Of a stretch of 64,000 nt of DNA, positions 4,221 to 34,132 are shown piece after piece. The stretch's first letter is position 1. Each line of letters begins with the position of its first letter. The stretch comes from Pseudobutyrivibrio ruminis AD2017. GTDB lineage: Bacteria > Bacillota > Clostridia > Lachnospirales > Lachnospiraceae. A program made the position numbers and the translations under genes. Location of the stretch: assembly GCF_000424305.1 (NCBI RefSeq), contig NZ_AUJQ01000004.1, positions 1 to 64,000 on the forward strand, written 5' to 3'. Below the pieces are notes generated by a model. It was not told the origin of the DNA. It saw only the letters and a list, made by a program, of their open reading frames with translations, and did no database searches.

Positions 4221-5132
4221 TTACTCCTCCGCAAAATCAAGTTCTAAGAACTTGCCGTCTTCCCCCAAATAAGCCTGTGGAAAAATATCACAGACTGCTT
4301 TCATGTATCTTTTATGCCCCGTCATTGATGGCGAAAAATGTGTAAGCCAAAGCTCTTTTACATCTGCATCCTTTGCAACTTTAGCTGCCTCGTAGAAAGT
4401 CATGTGCTTGTTCTGACGAGCCTTTGCAAGCTTATCTTCTTCGGCATACATGCCTTCGCAGATAAATAAATCCGATTTCTTAGCTGCTTCCACCAGCGAT
4501 TTAGTTGGTCTGGTGTCTGTGCAATATGTAACCTTAAGGCCCTTTCTGGCGCTGCCCATAACCATATCCGGTGTATAGGTTTTGCCTTCAAACTCAACTG
4601 TGTTTCCTTTTTGAAGTGGATTCCAGAGAGTTACTGGAAGGCCAAGGTCTCTAGCTGTTTCTACATCGAATCTTCCCTTTCTAGGAATATCGACTGAATA
4701 ACCATAACATAAAACATTATGGTTAACCTTAAATGCATGAATATGATAGCCTAGGATTTCGAAATATTCTTCATCCTGCTGCAATTCATGAAACTTTATC
4801 TCAAAGGGTAGCTCTGGGGCAATCACTCTTAAGGAGTTGACTACTCGCTCTAGCCCTTTTGGACCGACAATTGTTACCGGCTCTGTTCTATCGGAGTTAC
4901 CCATAGAAAGTAAAAAGCCTGGTAAGCCGCTGACGTGGTCTGCATGATAATGGGTGAGACAAATCAACGAGATTGGATTTGGGGAGAAGCCTGCTTCTCG
5001 CAGTGCTACCTGTGTTCCCTCGCCACAATCTATAAGTAAGCCTTCGCCATTAAATCTTAATAAGCATGAGGTCAGCCATCTATTAGGAAGAGGCATCATG
5101 CCTGCTGTTCCCAACAAACAAACATCTAACAT
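4221..5132 (-). CDS. rnz: Ribonuclease Z
   Basis: RNase Z is the metallo-beta-lactamase-fold endonuclease that trims the 3' ends of tRNA precursors. The 303-residue length fits the short bacterial form. The zinc motif HYHADHVSGLPG (residues about 62-73) is complete, further metal His/Asp residues are in the CTDTRP region (near 207) and the LTHFSPS region (near 265). Because the two tRNA genes in this window do not encode CCA, a 3' endonuclease of this kind is needed for their maturation. A palindromic repeat fills the space before its start codon. Confidence 0.95.
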   Translation of the reverse strand: MLDVCLLGTAGMMPLPNRWLTSCLLRFNGEGLLIDCGEGTQVALREAGFSPNPISLICLTHYHADHVSGLPGFLLSMGNSDRTEPVTIVGPKGLERVVNSLRVIAPELPFEIKFHELQQDEEYFEILGYHIHAFKVNHNVLCYGYSVDIPRKGRFDVETARDLGLPVTLWNPLQKGNTVEFEGKTYTPDMVMGSARKGLKVTYCTDTRPTKSLVEAAKKSDLFICEGMYAEEDKLAKARQNKHMTFYEAAKVAKDADVKELWLTHFSPSMTGHKRYMKAVCDIFPQAYLGEDGKFLELDFAEE

Positions 5133-5164
5133 CTATAAATCCTTTCAAGTTACTCAAATAATTA

Positions 5165-5372
5165 GTCTTTCTCTCGCTTGTTACGCTCACAATATTATAT
5201 ACTCTTTCAGTCGCTAAGATGCTCCTTACAGAGTATATAATATTGTGAACTACAAGCTATTTTTACTCTTCTAATGTAGGCAGAATTTAATATACGCTCA
5301 GTCGCTAAGATGCTCCTTGCAGAGTATATTACATTGTTAGCTACAAGCTACTTTTACACTTCTTATGCAGGC
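5165..5372. repeat. Nested palindromic repeat, copy A
   Basis: Between rimI and rnz lies an imperfect dyad. A perfect 18-bp inverted repeat (5188-5205 with 5230-5247) encloses a 24-nt loop containing CAGTCGCTAAGATGCTCCTT. A second, shorter hairpin with the same loop and arms AATATAC/GTATATT follows at about 5290-5330. The flanks (AGTCTTT..CTCGC..GTTACGCTC on the left, CTACAAGCTAttttTAC on the right) match the arms of the larger repeat at 21359-21600. No coding potential is evident. This is a dispersed, non-coding repeat of unknown role. Confidence 0.8.
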
Positions 5373-5390
5373 ACAAATTTTGTTTACGCT

Positions 5391-5837
5391 TTATTCCTCC
5401 ATACGGTATGACATGCAGATTGCATCCTCGATGGGGTTGGAATAGAAGTATTTGCGTTTGCCGATTTCTTCGAAGCCTAGACTATCGTATAGGGTGCGGG
5501 CTGGGGTGTTGGAAACTCGGACTTCTAAAAATACTGTGTCTACTTTTTGGGATTGTAGTTGGTCAAAGGCGTAGTGCAAGAGAGCTTTAGCTATTCCCCT
5601 TTTGCGATAGGCTTCGGCCACTACAATATCTGGAAGTTCCGATTCTGGTGGTGTTAGGTAAAACACTGCAAAGCCTGCTATAGCATCATCCTCAGAGGCC
5701 ACGACTACAAATGCGTGGTCTGAGTGAATCGCTTCTAAGTAATTATCCTTGTGCCATGGGTTTGACATGGCTGATTCTTCTATAGCAACGATTGCATCTA
5801 CATCGGAATCGGTAGCGTATCTATATGTAAGAGCCAT
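5391..5837 (-). CDS. rimI: Ribosomal protein S18 alanine N-acetyltransferase
   Basis: A 148-residue GNAT acetyltransferase of the RimI family, which acetylates the N-terminal alanine of ribosomal protein S18 using acetyl-CoA. The acetyl-CoA-binding loop is VAEAYRKRGIAKALL (residues about 73-87, Q/RxxGxG/A form) and the SNTPARTLYDSLGFEEIGKRKYY-like C-terminal motif (near residue 109-129) is characteristic of RimI. It overlaps tsaB by one base (stop/start), and tsaB-rimI linkage is common in bacteria. Other GNAT substrates cannot be excluded, but the context strongly favours RimI. Confidence 0.88.
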   Translation of the reverse strand: MALTYRYATDSDVDAIVAIEESAMSNPWHKDNYLEAIHSDHAFVVVASEDDAIAGFAVFYLTPPESELPDIVVAEAYRKRGIAKALLHYAFDQLQSQKVDTVFLEVRVSNTPARTLYDSLGFEEIGKRKYFYSNPIEDAICMSYRMEE

Positions 5838-17689: not shown

Positions 17690-18292
17690 TTATTTCTGTG
17701 CTGAAATTATAGTGTCATAAAGATCTGTGTATTCTTCAAAAGCCTGTAGATTTGGATATTTTGCTTTAATTTCATCTGTTGTTCTAAACAAAAATCCTGC
17801 CTTTGAATTTTCAATCATTCCCAAATCGTTATAGCTATCGCCGCTGGCAATAGTCTGGAATCCGCATGACTGAAGTGCCTTTACGGTTGTAAGCTTTGTT
17901 TTATCACAACGCATTTTATAGCCTGTGATTTTGTCATCATCTGAAACTGTAAGCTCGTTGCAGAATATGGTTGGGTAGCCAAGCTTCTTCATAAGAGGCA
18001 TAGCAAACTGTGAAAATGTATCACTAATAATTATGACCTGACCATTTGCTCTAAGCTTGTCTAAGAAATCCTTTGCACCAGGCAATGGGTCAATCTTTTC
18101 GATTGTTTCCTGAATTTCCTTTAAGCCTAGGCCATGCTCATTCAAAATATCTATACGATACTTCATAAGCTTATCGTAATCAGGCTCATCTCTTGTAGTC
18201 TTCTTAAGCTCTGGAATGCCTGCGGCATCCGCAAATTCAATCCAGATTTCTGGAACTAAAACTCCCTCTAAATCCAAACAAGTAATATACAT
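17690..18292 (-). CDS. thrH: ThrH-type phosphoserine phosphatase / homoserine phosphotransferase
   Basis: A 200-residue HAD-superfamily hydrolase. The N-terminal motif is CLDLEGVLVPEIW (residues 4-16; the ThrH form has Glu where most HAD enzymes have the second Asp), with the VIIISDTFSQF motif II near residue 90 and SGDSYNDLGMI motif IV near 155. ThrH removes phosphate from phosphoserine and can pass it to homoserine, giving phosphohomoserine for threonine synthesis. The gene next door (hom) makes homoserine, so this activity is plausible here. A GC-rich foldable element lies directly upstream. Confidence 0.9.
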   Translation of the reverse strand: MYITCLDLEGVLVPEIWIEFADAAGIPELKKTTRDEPDYDKLMKYRIDILNEHGLGLKEIQETIEKIDPLPGAKDFLDKLRANGQVIIISDTFSQFAMPLMKKLGYPTIFCNELTVSDDDKITGYKMRCDKTKLTTVKALQSCGFQTIASGDSYNDLGMIENSKAGFLFRTTDEIKAKYPNLQAFEEYTDLYDTIISAQK

Positions 18293-18314
18293 AACATCTC
18301 CTTATATATTATAC

Positions 18315-18432
18315 GGCGCACATAAGTACTACATGCTCCCGGAGGCCACCTTCCACACTTTCGTTCCGGTCCAGTAGGTCCTCACTCGGTATGGAGCCTT
18401 CCTCCTCGCGCTTGCCAATACTATGTTGCGCC
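18315..18432 (-). ncRNA. Unassigned GC-rich structured element upstream of thrH
   Basis: A 118-nt segment between hom and thrH, far more GC-rich than the surrounding AT-rich gap. On the minus strand the ends GGCGCA-a-CATA-GTA and TAC-t-TATG-TGCGCC pair to a 13-14-bp closing stem. Inside, GCTCC can pair with GGAGC, GAGG with CCTC and ACC with GGT, arranged in nested order around a purine-rich centre (CCGGAACGAAAGTG). It ends about 20 nt before the thrH start codon, so it could be a cis-acting leader (riboswitch-like) or an independent small RNA. It does not match SRP RNA, 6S, RNase P or any riboswitch I know. Confidence 0.6.
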
Positions 18433-18483
18433 TTACATATCAAAAATGCTCATTTAAATTTTACAGTTACAAAAATATACTTC

Positions 18484-19680
18484 CTAGAAGAAACGGATAA
18501 CGCTTTTGACGCCGCCAAGGGCTGCCTTACGTTCGTTGAATTCAGATTCAGTCATTTCTTCAGTAACGAATGCTGTTTCGTCATCTAAATCTAAATCTGT
18601 ATAATGTACGTTTTCAAATTCGTTTTCGATATTAGACTGAAGAGCTGATGTACGAACGAAATATTTAAAGCGCTGTTCGTTTGGATTTGCTAATTCAAGA
18701 TGTTCATTAGCCCATCCAATTCGTACATGCTTGTCTGTATTTCTTGCTAAGAATACAAGATCGCCTACTACTGCTGATGCTGTAGGGAGCGCCCCTGCTC
18801 CAGCACCATAATAAAGAGATTCGCCAAGCATATTACCGATTACAGCAACTGCATTCATAACCCCTGATACATGATAAAGCATCTGCTCTGGCTTAACCAA
18901 AAACGGTGCTACTCTACAAGAATAGGTGTCACCCTTTTTGACTGAACGCGCCACAAGCTTGATGCTGTAGCCCATAGATTTAGCATATTTAAAATCAGTA
19001 GCGGAAATCTTACTGATCCCCTCTGTAGGAATTTCTTTATAATCAACATTTTTGCTAGCAATTATAGATGTAAGAATCGCAAGCTTACGGCAGCTGTCGT
19101 GTCCCTCAACATCGGCTGTAGGGTCCTTTTCAGCATAGCCTAATGACTGAGCTTCAGAAAGGATTTCATCATAGTCACTGCCAAACTGCTCCATGTTTGT
19201 AAGCATGTAGTTAGTTGTTCCGTTGCATATAGCTGCGATTTCTTCGATTACGTCGCCTGTAAGACATGCTGTAAGTGTACGAATTATTGGGATTCCACCG
19301 CCTACAGCTGCTTCGAACACGAAGTTGGTGCCATGGTCTTTGGCAATTTTCATAAGCTCAGCGCCTTTATCAGCTACAAGCGCTTTGTTAGAAGTGGTTA
19401 CTGATTTGCCGGATTCTAACATCGCCTTAACAAATGAAAATGCTGGCTCAACGCCGCCCATAGTTTCAACAACAAGCTTTACTTCTTTGTCCTTAACAAT
19501 ATCCTTGTAGTCCTTCACAAAACAATCTGCGTGTGGGTCATCAGGGAAATCTCTTAAATCCAGGATATATTTTAAATCCAATGATTCTCCTAGTCGTTCC
19601 TTGATGATGTCTCTGTTAGTGTCTAAAACTTTCGCTACACCAGAACCGATTGTTCCATATCCCATAATTGCTACTTTCAT
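18484..19680 (-). CDS. hom: Homoserine dehydrogenase
   Basis: Hom reduces aspartate semialdehyde to homoserine with NAD(P)H in the aspartate-family pathway to threonine and methionine. The 398 residues show the Rossmann loop GYGTIGSGVAKVL (7-19), TSNKALVA (near 96), the GGGIPIIRTL motif (near 127), the NGTTNYML signature (near 152) and the catalytic DVEGHDSCRKLAIL segment (near 189). It is 4 nt downstream of a regulatory ACT-domain protein gene and followed by thrH, forming a small homoserine/threonine unit. No aspartate kinase, thrB or thrC is present in the window. Confidence 0.95.
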   Translation of the reverse strand: MKVAIMGYGTIGSGVAKVLDTNRDIIKERLGESLDLKYILDLRDFPDDPHADCFVKDYKDIVKDKEVKLVVETMGGVEPAFSFVKAMLESGKSVTTSNKALVADKGAELMKIAKDHGTNFVFEAAVGGGIPIIRTLTACLTGDVIEEIAAICNGTTNYMLTNMEQFGSDYDEILSEAQSLGYAEKDPTADVEGHDSCRKLAILTSIIASKNVDYKEIPTEGISKISATDFKYAKSMGYSIKLVARSVKKGDTYSCRVAPFLVKPEQMLYHVSGVMNAVAVIGNMLGESLYYGAGAGALPTASAVVGDLVFLARNTDKHVRIGWANEHLELANPNEQRFKYFVRTSALQSNIENEFENVHYTDLDLDDETAFVTEEMTESEFNERKAALGGVKSVIRFF

Positions 19681-19684
19681 GCTG

Positions 19685-20125
19685 TCACTCCCTTGCTAAA
19701 ATTTTTACATAATGAACACCTTCAACATTTTCAATGGCACTTACCAAATCTGCATAGTCCACTCCTGTTTCAGGAATCTTTACAGATAATGTAAGTGATG
19801 CTGAACCGCCAACAGGTACACTTTGATGTATGGTGAGTATATTAACTTTAAACTCTGCGATCTCGTCCAAAACTCTAGACAGGATACCCGGTTCATCAGT
19901 TAATTGAATAACAACATTGACCGTCTTTCCTTTTGTATCTTCATGGAAAGGGGTAATATCGTCCTTATACTTATAGAAGGAGCTACGACTAATTCCTACT
20001 AATTCAGTAGCTTCCTGAACAGAACATTTCTTTTCTTCTATAAGTTTTTTTGCTGCAACCACTCTAAGCAATACATCGGGTACAGCCTTCTCTTTCAAAA
20101 CATAATAGGTTGTTTTGTCTGCCAT
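19685..20125 (-). CDS. ACT domain-containing protein (UPF0735, PheB-like)
   Basis: A 147-residue protein of the UPF0735/PheB type. The N-terminal half has a helix-turn-helix-like segment, CSVQEATELVGISRSSFYKYKDDI (near residues 34-57), and the C-terminal half is an ACT domain (NVVIQLTDEPGILSRVLDEIA, near 70-90) of the kind that binds amino acids. The ATG at 20125 is chosen because GGAGGG precedes it; the longer frame lacks a site. Being immediately upstream of hom suggests an amino-acid-sensing role in this pathway, which is inference. Confidence 0.85.
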   Translation of the reverse strand: MADKTTYYVLKEKAVPDVLLRVVAAKKLIEEKKCSVQEATELVGISRSSFYKYKDDITPFHEDTKGKTVNVVIQLTDEPGILSRVLDEIAEFKVNILTIHQSVPVGGSASLTLSVKIPETGVDYADLVSAIENVEGVHYVKILARE

Positions 20126-20205
20126 AATCCCTCCGGTGTGTCTGTCTGACAAGCACATTTGTCCTTGTTCAGAAGATAATAACATTTATCAATATATAAA
20201 GCAAG

Positions 20206-21358: not shown

Positions 21359-21600
21359 CTCGCCTGTTATGCTCTCAAGCAACCCTAGTCTTTGGCTCGC
21401 CCGTTACGTTCTCAAGCAGCCCCAGTCTTTGGCTCGCCCGTTACGCTCTCAAGCCTTAGTATTACACGCTCGACTAGATGTCTCGCTTAGTAATACTAAT
21501 GCTTGATAGCTACGGGCTACTTATAATACTTAGATGCTTGATAGCTACAGGCTATTTATACATGTTTAGATGCTTGATAGCTACAGGCTACCTTACATAT
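21359..21600. repeat. Nested inverted-tandem repeat, copy B
   Basis: Between prfB and the S41 protease gene, three left-arm units (about 37-nt period; core CTCGCCCGTTACGCTCTCAAGC) are followed by a central hairpin with perfect 10-bp arms TTAGTATTAC/GTAATACTAA and a loop containing CTAGATGTCTCGCTTA. Three right-arm units follow (about 36-nt period; core ATGCTTGATAGCTACAGGCTA). The right core is approximately the reverse complement of the left core, so the whole segment is one long nested dyad. Copy A at 5165-5372 shares flanks and loop. No open reading frame fits it. Confidence 0.85.
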
Positions 21601-34030: not shown

Positions 34031-34132
34031 AAAAAAACACCCCGTAGGTAACAAGCTATAATAAAACCCTGCTTCACATATTAGTGATGCAGGGTTTTAA
34101 TTATGCTTGTGACCGTAACGGGGTGTTTTTTT
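34031..34132. terminator. Long bidirectional terminator between the PBP gene and glnN
   Basis: A nested hairpin of about 100 nt. Outer arms ACACCCCGT/ACGGGGTGT, middle ACAAGC/GCTTGT and inner AAAACCCTGC/GCAGGGTTTT close on a 16-nt loop. A-run (34031-34037) and T-run (34126-34132) flank it, so it can end transcription from both convergent genes. Confidence 0.92.

Follow-up and report, generated by a model that had tools for sequence, protein, structure and literature searches.

A dispersed structured repeat between hom and thrH of Pseudobutyrivibrio ruminis, with copy-specific paired stems and differing inner modules

The presence of a compact, G+C-rich block in the gap between hom and thrH of Pseudobutyrivibrio ruminis AD2017 raises the question of whether it is a regulatory RNA of this locus or a local instance of something more widespread. 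The block occupies positions 18315-18432 of the window, i.e., the whole stretch of 64,000 nucleotides that was analysed. The initial annotation had placed it correctly and had rightly described it as richer in G+C than its AT-rich surroundings: it has 57.6% G+C, whereas the rest of the gap has 22.7% on one side and 19.6% on the other and the window as a whole 39.8%, and among all 118-nt segments of the 64 kb 0.02% match its G+C level. The predicted fold of the minus strand has an energy of -50.9 kcal/mol; dinucleotide shuffles give -34.3 +/- 3.3, and none of 200 was as stable (z -5.0), whereas the plus strand gives a z of -2.1 (5 of 200 shuffles as stable). Hence, the minus strand is the better-folding one, and it is the strand of hom and thrH. 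The closing stem, previously given as 13-14 bp with two bulges, consists of 13 pairs, each arm carrying a single bulged base (GGCGCA/CATA/GTA with TGCGCC/TATG/TAC). On the minus strand, its 5' arm (sense GGCGCAACATAGTA) lies at 18419-18432 and its 3' arm (sense TACTTATGTGCGCC) at 18315-18328, and arm pairing of this sort is specific to each copy of the element described below.

Because both genes are encoded on the minus strand, the block is sense between them. The upstream gene is hom (homoserine dehydrogenase, 18484-19680) and the downstream one thrH (phosphoserine phosphatase/homoserine phosphotransferase, 17690-18292); both names were confirmed. From the end of the block to the start codon of thrH (18292) there are 22 nt, close to the 20 nt noted earlier, so that the block has the position and the strand expected of a cis-regulatory RNA. 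Between them, a probable thrH ribosome-binding site (sense AAGGAG, minus strand, 18298-18303) was read by eye. An ACT-domain gene (19685-20185) lies 4 nt upstream of hom, an arrangement that suggests a single operon of the ACT-domain gene, hom, and thrH. On the strand of the block, neither a promoter-like nor a terminator-like site turned up in a crude scan. A tRNA identity was rejected. The earlier statement that the block fits no known RNA family was borne out by Rfam 15, which gave no gathering-level match for it and none up to E 10 in 18200-18550.

Searching the genome of AD2017 (2.91 Mb in 21 contigs) with the DNA of the block resulted in 12 places, and a 16-base core pattern with up to three mismatches resulted in 38, against 2 for a reversed control pattern. 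Thirty of these 38 places were examined as loci, and both ends of the core were readable in 25 of them. We built a covariance model (R1) from 21 of the 25 copies, excluding L014, L020, L025, and L038, which are divergent, enlarged, or odd. R1 identifies 27 copies in this genome (E 5e-32 to 9e-6), and occurrence as a scattered repeat is a result that the initial annotation had named as counting against its own reading. Their cores are about 105-166 nt long and are sited between called genes. The core of the hom-thrH copy, GGCAAGCGCGAG-N-AGG ... CCT-N'-CGGGAGCAYG with its inner helices, lies at 18322-18426 on the minus strand (84.2 bits, E 1.2e-23 in the window). This structured repeat, which we call type 1, is apparently undescribed: a literature search, with most subscription papers outside its reach, turned up no account of repeats of this sort from Pseudobutyrivibrio or Butyrivibrio.

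Type 1 is widespread in the genus. R1 has matches in 27 of the 29 Pseudobutyrivibrio genomes, ranging from 0 (G014 and G018) to 54 copies (G010). A survey of the family (299 genomes from 298 genera), run with stricter filters under which weak matches are lost, identified R1 only in two genomes of the same genus and in one weak locus of another genus (G062, E 5.5e-4). This type-1-like locus keeps the core motif and the fold, and its sequence is identical at two contig ends (L098 and L534), so it is probably a single copy. It is an isolated, distant relative of the type-1 core that has similar internal loops and a GAAA-capped inner stem, and its neighbour gene looks by eye like uvrA. R1 had no match in 7 other genomes of the G062 genus. 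From the G062 sequence, the type-1 motif may be older than the genus. Five of the matches listed by a loose pattern scan were compared with R1, which matched L195 and L216 and did not match L157, L179, and L206. One copy (L028, 171 bases) had no match among 72,556 plasmid records or among 50,697 phage records, and R1 was absent from the 80 viral loci that were among the matches listed for a 14-base pattern. As far as these searches go, spread by phages or plasmids is not supported.

Read in the sense direction and from the outside in, a type-1 copy consists of the ends TTTAGATGAGC ... GCGGACTAA (read by eye, and partly absent in many copies), a copy-specific outer stem, NCAACCTA-GGCAAGCGCGAG, a helix, and inner helices of several types, with CGGGAGCAYG opposite. 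At hom-thrH, a likely remnant of the conserved 5' end (sense TTTAAATGAGC, minus strand, 18448-18458) was read by eye, the same end being present in other copies and in a 93% identical relative (G024), and its 3' partner GCGGACTAA was not recognisable there by eye. One copy of AD2017 (L037) has lost the 3' half of the core and keeps a perfect 19-bp outer stem and both ends. Compensatory changes, which the initial annotation had expected of a genuine structure, are present. RNAalifold on the type-1 alignment (A1) gives 22 pairs, 10 of them with a double change, and one helix pair reads C-G in 13, G-C in 6, A-U in 1, and U-A in 1 of the 21 copies. To study the outer stems, we compared the duplex energy of each copy's own arms with that of arms swapped between copies. 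For 24 copies of AD2017 the mean energies are -17.42 and -7.73 kcal/mol, respectively, and for a set of 109 copies, some of them orthologous to each other and one (L103) with a wrong 3' edge, -17.45 and -7.96 kcal/mol. The larger set derives from 119 pattern matches after exclusion of ten false starts, mostly nested in other matches. Control stretches further out show little of this (-8.02 versus -7.07 for the 24 copies and -7.64 versus -6.92 for the 109). Own arms are far stabler than swapped ones, hence each copy has its own self-complementary stem.

The genus carries a second, related hairpin family with ends common to type 1 and a similar distribution. These type-2 repeats are ordered as an outer stem, GTAG-NNANCAAGC, a variable stem, an apical hairpin, GCTTG-NNN-CGTAAC, and the outer stem again. 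The corresponding model (R2) was built from 20 of 22 sequences, with two nested long ones excluded; 19 of the 28 pairs in its alignment have a double change. R2 is present in 28 of the 29 genomes, with 62 copies in AD2017 and a maximum of 133; G014 has neither type. The survey with stricter filters found no R2 match in the other 297 sampled genera, and Rfam 15 gave for one type-2 region two matches only, far below the gathering score. The window contains three type-2 copies (five R2 rows, of which two are weaker opposite-strand matches at the same places). The first lies at 21428-21525 (minus strand, 89 bits), that at 34032-34131 (plus strand, 79 bits) forms the stem of a terminator-like hairpin between convergent genes, with an A tract before and a T tract after it, and that at 5168-5265 (minus strand, 51.6 bits) has a partial second copy alongside, to about 5345. 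In the regions 21380-21570 and 5120-5400, type-2 copies have partial copies of one arm in tandem beside them, which looks as though arms had been duplicated independently of the rest. At the L023 site, AD2017 has an ordinary terminator, and G005 (L342) and G024 (L340) have type-2-like sequence in a terminator-like stem. Enlarged type-1 copies lie beside a type-2 copy in the opposite orientation in G010 (L357, which contains a further module) and G013 (L358), and inverted pairs of such copies also occur in several gaps of AD2017 (L019, L025, and L031/L037).

The sites of individual copies can be followed between species. The flanks of 14 copies of AD2017 were searched in five relatives and were both found on one strand for 55 of the 70 site-genome pairs, with two pairs of the L032 site excluded for mismatched strands. 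The comparison used 49 of these 55, after exclusion of three L026 rows (mapping) and three L027 rows (no visible type-1 core). A script found a type-1 core in 32 of the 49 pairs and none in 17, one of the latter being the enlarged copy L357, which it had missed. Some of the 17 have no hairpin at all, e.g., the L014 site in G024 and G005 and the L028 site in G005 and G023. Others have other sequence, and at the L022 site of G005 a type-2 repeat stands in place of type 1, with the unusual end GCGGGCT kept. The three L013 sites without a core retain GCGGACTA, with which the repeat ends on its 3' side; some of the empty sites may therefore have lost a copy by deletion instead of never having had one. 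Alignments of filled and empty sites with MAFFT were mostly poor; they gave a clean left edge only at the L028 site, and no clear target-site duplication or exact insertion boundary was readable in them.

Where the element is retained, its stem may diverge and still pair. At the L034 site, different species have TGACAC/GTGTCA, TAGCAC/GTGCTA, and TTGTAC/GTACAA, and at the L013 site GCCAAATGTT/AACATTTGGC and GCTGAATGCA/TGCATTCAGC, with 4 of 10 positions changed at once. Position by position, 211 of the 310 compared cells are unchanged; in 24 both partners have changed and pair, and 12 are G-U, 8 A-C, and 55 unpaired. The A-C and unpaired cells arise in part because the arms were compared without gaps, and the unpaired ones include stems replaced or shifted whole and a row (L350) for which the script took a neighbouring copy. 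Conversely, at the L030 site the inner core differs in G024, G023, and G010 and the stem is unchanged. The hom-thrH site itself, read by eye in 28 of the 29 genomes (the one not resolved being L134), carries type 1 in 2 of them, a type-2-like hairpin in 9, and inverted repeats of other kinds in 2; the remaining 15 show no hairpin from either family.

Most copies share the direction of both neighbouring genes. Among the 24 of the 27 AD2017 copies that were classed, 18 are sense to both neighbours, 5 are antisense to both, and 1 is undetermined. A wider set, consisting mostly of high-scoring loci with genes called by a simple open-frame rule, shows the same bias once copies with shared flanks are removed. 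The 67 type-1 copies include 42 sense to both neighbours and 11 antisense to both (p 2.2e-5), 8 in convergent gaps, 1 in a divergent gap, and 5 undetermined; for the 47 type-2 copies the numbers are 29 and 7 (p 3.1e-4), 8, 1, and 2. Many copies lie in close intercistronic gaps. When the 3' end of the element is within 60 nt of a start codon, type 1 is sense in 33 cases and antisense in 5, and type 2 in 24 and 0. In AD2017, the start of a sense downstream gene is usually 30-65 nt past the core. The downstream gene was located for 20 of the 25 copies, and 18 genes besides thrH were searched with NCBIfam. They encode functions as diverse as isocitrate dehydrogenase, ValS (valS), two glycogen phosphorylases (one cut off by the end of the locus and scoring below the cut-off), a nucleotide sugar dehydrogenase, an ACT-domain protein, AsnA (asnA), and PurM (purM). 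Below the curated cut-offs there were scpA-like, dihydrofolate reductase-like, 3-hydroxybutyryl-CoA dehydrogenase-like, dltB-like, anaerobic reductase-like, and motA-like genes, and four of the 18 had no match at the cut-offs used.

The kind of mismatch tolerated in a helix provides additional information on the molecule in which the fold is maintained. Our scoring treats G-T and A-C alike, and the counts are not independent where copies are related. In the inner helices of 64 type-2 copies, there are 14 G-T and 0 A-C (p 1.2e-4), the pattern that selection on the sense-strand RNA would produce. The alignments give G-T to A-C counts of 38:1 for A1, largely from a few fixed positions, and of 17:6 for A2, a weaker contrast for type 2. 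The outer stems show no such excess (16:11 in type 1 and 4:3 in type 2), and selection on RNA is therefore not required to explain why they still pair; they are almost purely Watson-Crick (1,078 Watson-Crick, 16 GT/TG, 11 AC/CA, and 92 other). The contrast between inner and pooled outer helices is significant (Fisher p 0.004). So the core behaves like RNA, and the outer stems may be renewed at the DNA level. Template switching during replication is a published route by which RNA hairpins can be made and repaired, as proposed in PMC8794818.

Several families of small bacterial repeats invite comparison. In PMC2229807, ERIC (or IRU) of enterobacteria is described as a dispersed 127-bp element with a long stem-loop, 7-bp terminal repeats, target-site duplications, and open reading frames; in Yersinia it is reported to be co-transcribed with its neighbours and to have an orientation-dependent effect on the stability of the upstream transcript. 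The same source gives the Correia elements (NEMIS) of Neisseria as about 107 or 155 bp long, the longer form with an internal insert, with 24-bp terminal repeats and with transcripts whose hairpins are proposed substrates of RNase III (PMC2229807). Type 1 is likewise small, dispersed, and built as a long stem-loop, but differs from ERIC in that its outer stems vary from copy to copy and its inner modules vary at one site between species, and in that no target-site duplication was made out. An internal insert, as in NEMIS, is present in two copies of AD2017, but here only the short ends TTTAGATGAGC / GCGGACTAA, read by eye, are common to the copies. Of the features of elements resembling miniature inverted-repeat elements (ERIC, NEMIS, and RUP), type 1 has the size of about 100-200 bp, the dispersed intergenic copies, the predicted stable fold, and the presence or absence at given sites; as candidates for terminal inverted repeats, only the short common ends were seen by eye. 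Its conserved loops with covarying stems recall Rfam 15 families, none of which it matches up to E 10.

REP sequences are palindromic intergenic repeats with RAYT (Y1) transposases, and attC is a DNA hairpin site. Type 1 is also palindromic and intergenic, and GTAG in type 2 is reminiscent of the tetranucleotide found in REP. However, PF01797, the Y1 transposase family and the only transposase family searched for, is absent from AD2017; it is also absent from G005, G010, and G023, which carry 20, 54, and 29 type-1 copies, and we rejected a REP/RAYT identity on these grounds. The family is present in 10 of the 29 genomes of the genus, including G013 (40 copies), and no mobiliser was found. This absence also bears on the idea that the element works as DNA, its hairpin being extruded as a single strand or cruciform and bound by a recombinase or a nucleoid protein in the manner of REP or attC. 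Conserved ends around variable, nearly perfect stems and polymorphic presence are what such a site would show, but its fold and G-T pairs are strand-asymmetric and its orientation is biased to sense, so that we hold this to be unlikely.

The two readings first proposed for the block fare worse. The initial annotation was sound in seeing a structured element, which does lie outside Rfam and does show paired changes; its suggestion of a homoserine/threonine leader, which would sense threonine, homoserine, or phosphoserine ahead of thrH, is favoured by the sense strand and the 22-nt distance and is contradicted by copies that precede unrelated genes elsewhere and by the lack of type 1 at hom-thrH in 26 of 28 species. 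We give it almost no credence. Its other suggestion, an independent small RNA from the hom-thrH gap, agrees with the compact, stable fold and is nonetheless very improbable, given the lack of a promoter-like or terminator-like site in the crude scan and the many copies in short intercistronic gaps. A more serious competitor is a purely selfish repeat without host function, in which orientation reflects insertion site or tolerance and the stems are made and repaired by DNA template switching in replication. The nearly pure Watson-Crick outer stems without G-T excess, the several paired positions that differ at once between orthologs (L013 and L034 sites), the published proposal for such repair (PMC8794818), and a copy number of 0-54 all suit it. 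Yet the conserved internal loops have not been repaired into perfect stems, the inner helices of type 2 have G-T without A-C (even if 17:6 on the alignment), and both types are biased to sense. A selfish origin of this kind is therefore possible, if on balance unlikely.

We lean, with modest confidence, towards a reading in which the block belongs to a dispersed structured repeat that is mobile in the manner of ERIC and acts, if at all, in cis on polycistronic mRNA. Many copies, presence and absence at given sites, a fold kept through paired changes, inner modules that differ between species at one site, and a sense bias were observed; the position and orientation of the copies fit an ERIC-like role. 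The element would be transcribed within the polycistronic mRNA and, by analogy with ERIC, its effect in cis would most likely be on processing or stability, so that the amounts of the upstream and downstream cistrons would be uncoupled, as reported for ERIC in Yersinia. Its mobility would be non-autonomous and depend on a factor supplied in trans. Several results speak against this reading: the five of 24 AD2017 copies antisense to both neighbours, the outer stems without a G-T excess and the weaker type-2 contrast on the alignment, the failure to read a target-site duplication or an insertion boundary, the L013 sites that may be deletions, the search that found no mobiliser, and the unpaired and A-C cells among the orthologous stems. 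More speculatively, and with considerable doubt, the genus could have a mobile system of RNA-folding elements in which the core is a cargo module exchanged at fixed chromosomal hairpin sites, each event writing a fresh, nearly perfect self-complementary stem at the DNA level, with interchangeable RNA modules at some 90 sites of this genome read by one factor.

The repeat belongs to an already known kind, that of structured mobile intergenic elements, and is unusual in its copy-specific paired stems, in modules that differ between species at fixed sites, and in its two architectures with common ends. For RNA discovery it is a warning that structure and covariation at one locus can belong to a dispersed repeat. 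The two families, both outside Rfam and absent from the literature searched, amount to 89 structured sites in the genome of AD2017 (27 and 62), many of them intercistronic. Because the stems vary between species without loss of pairing, and their sites can be matched gene by gene, they form a natural data set that bears on whether compensatory changes in hairpins arise from selection on RNA or from DNA template switching, and on how intercistronic repeats shape operon expression.
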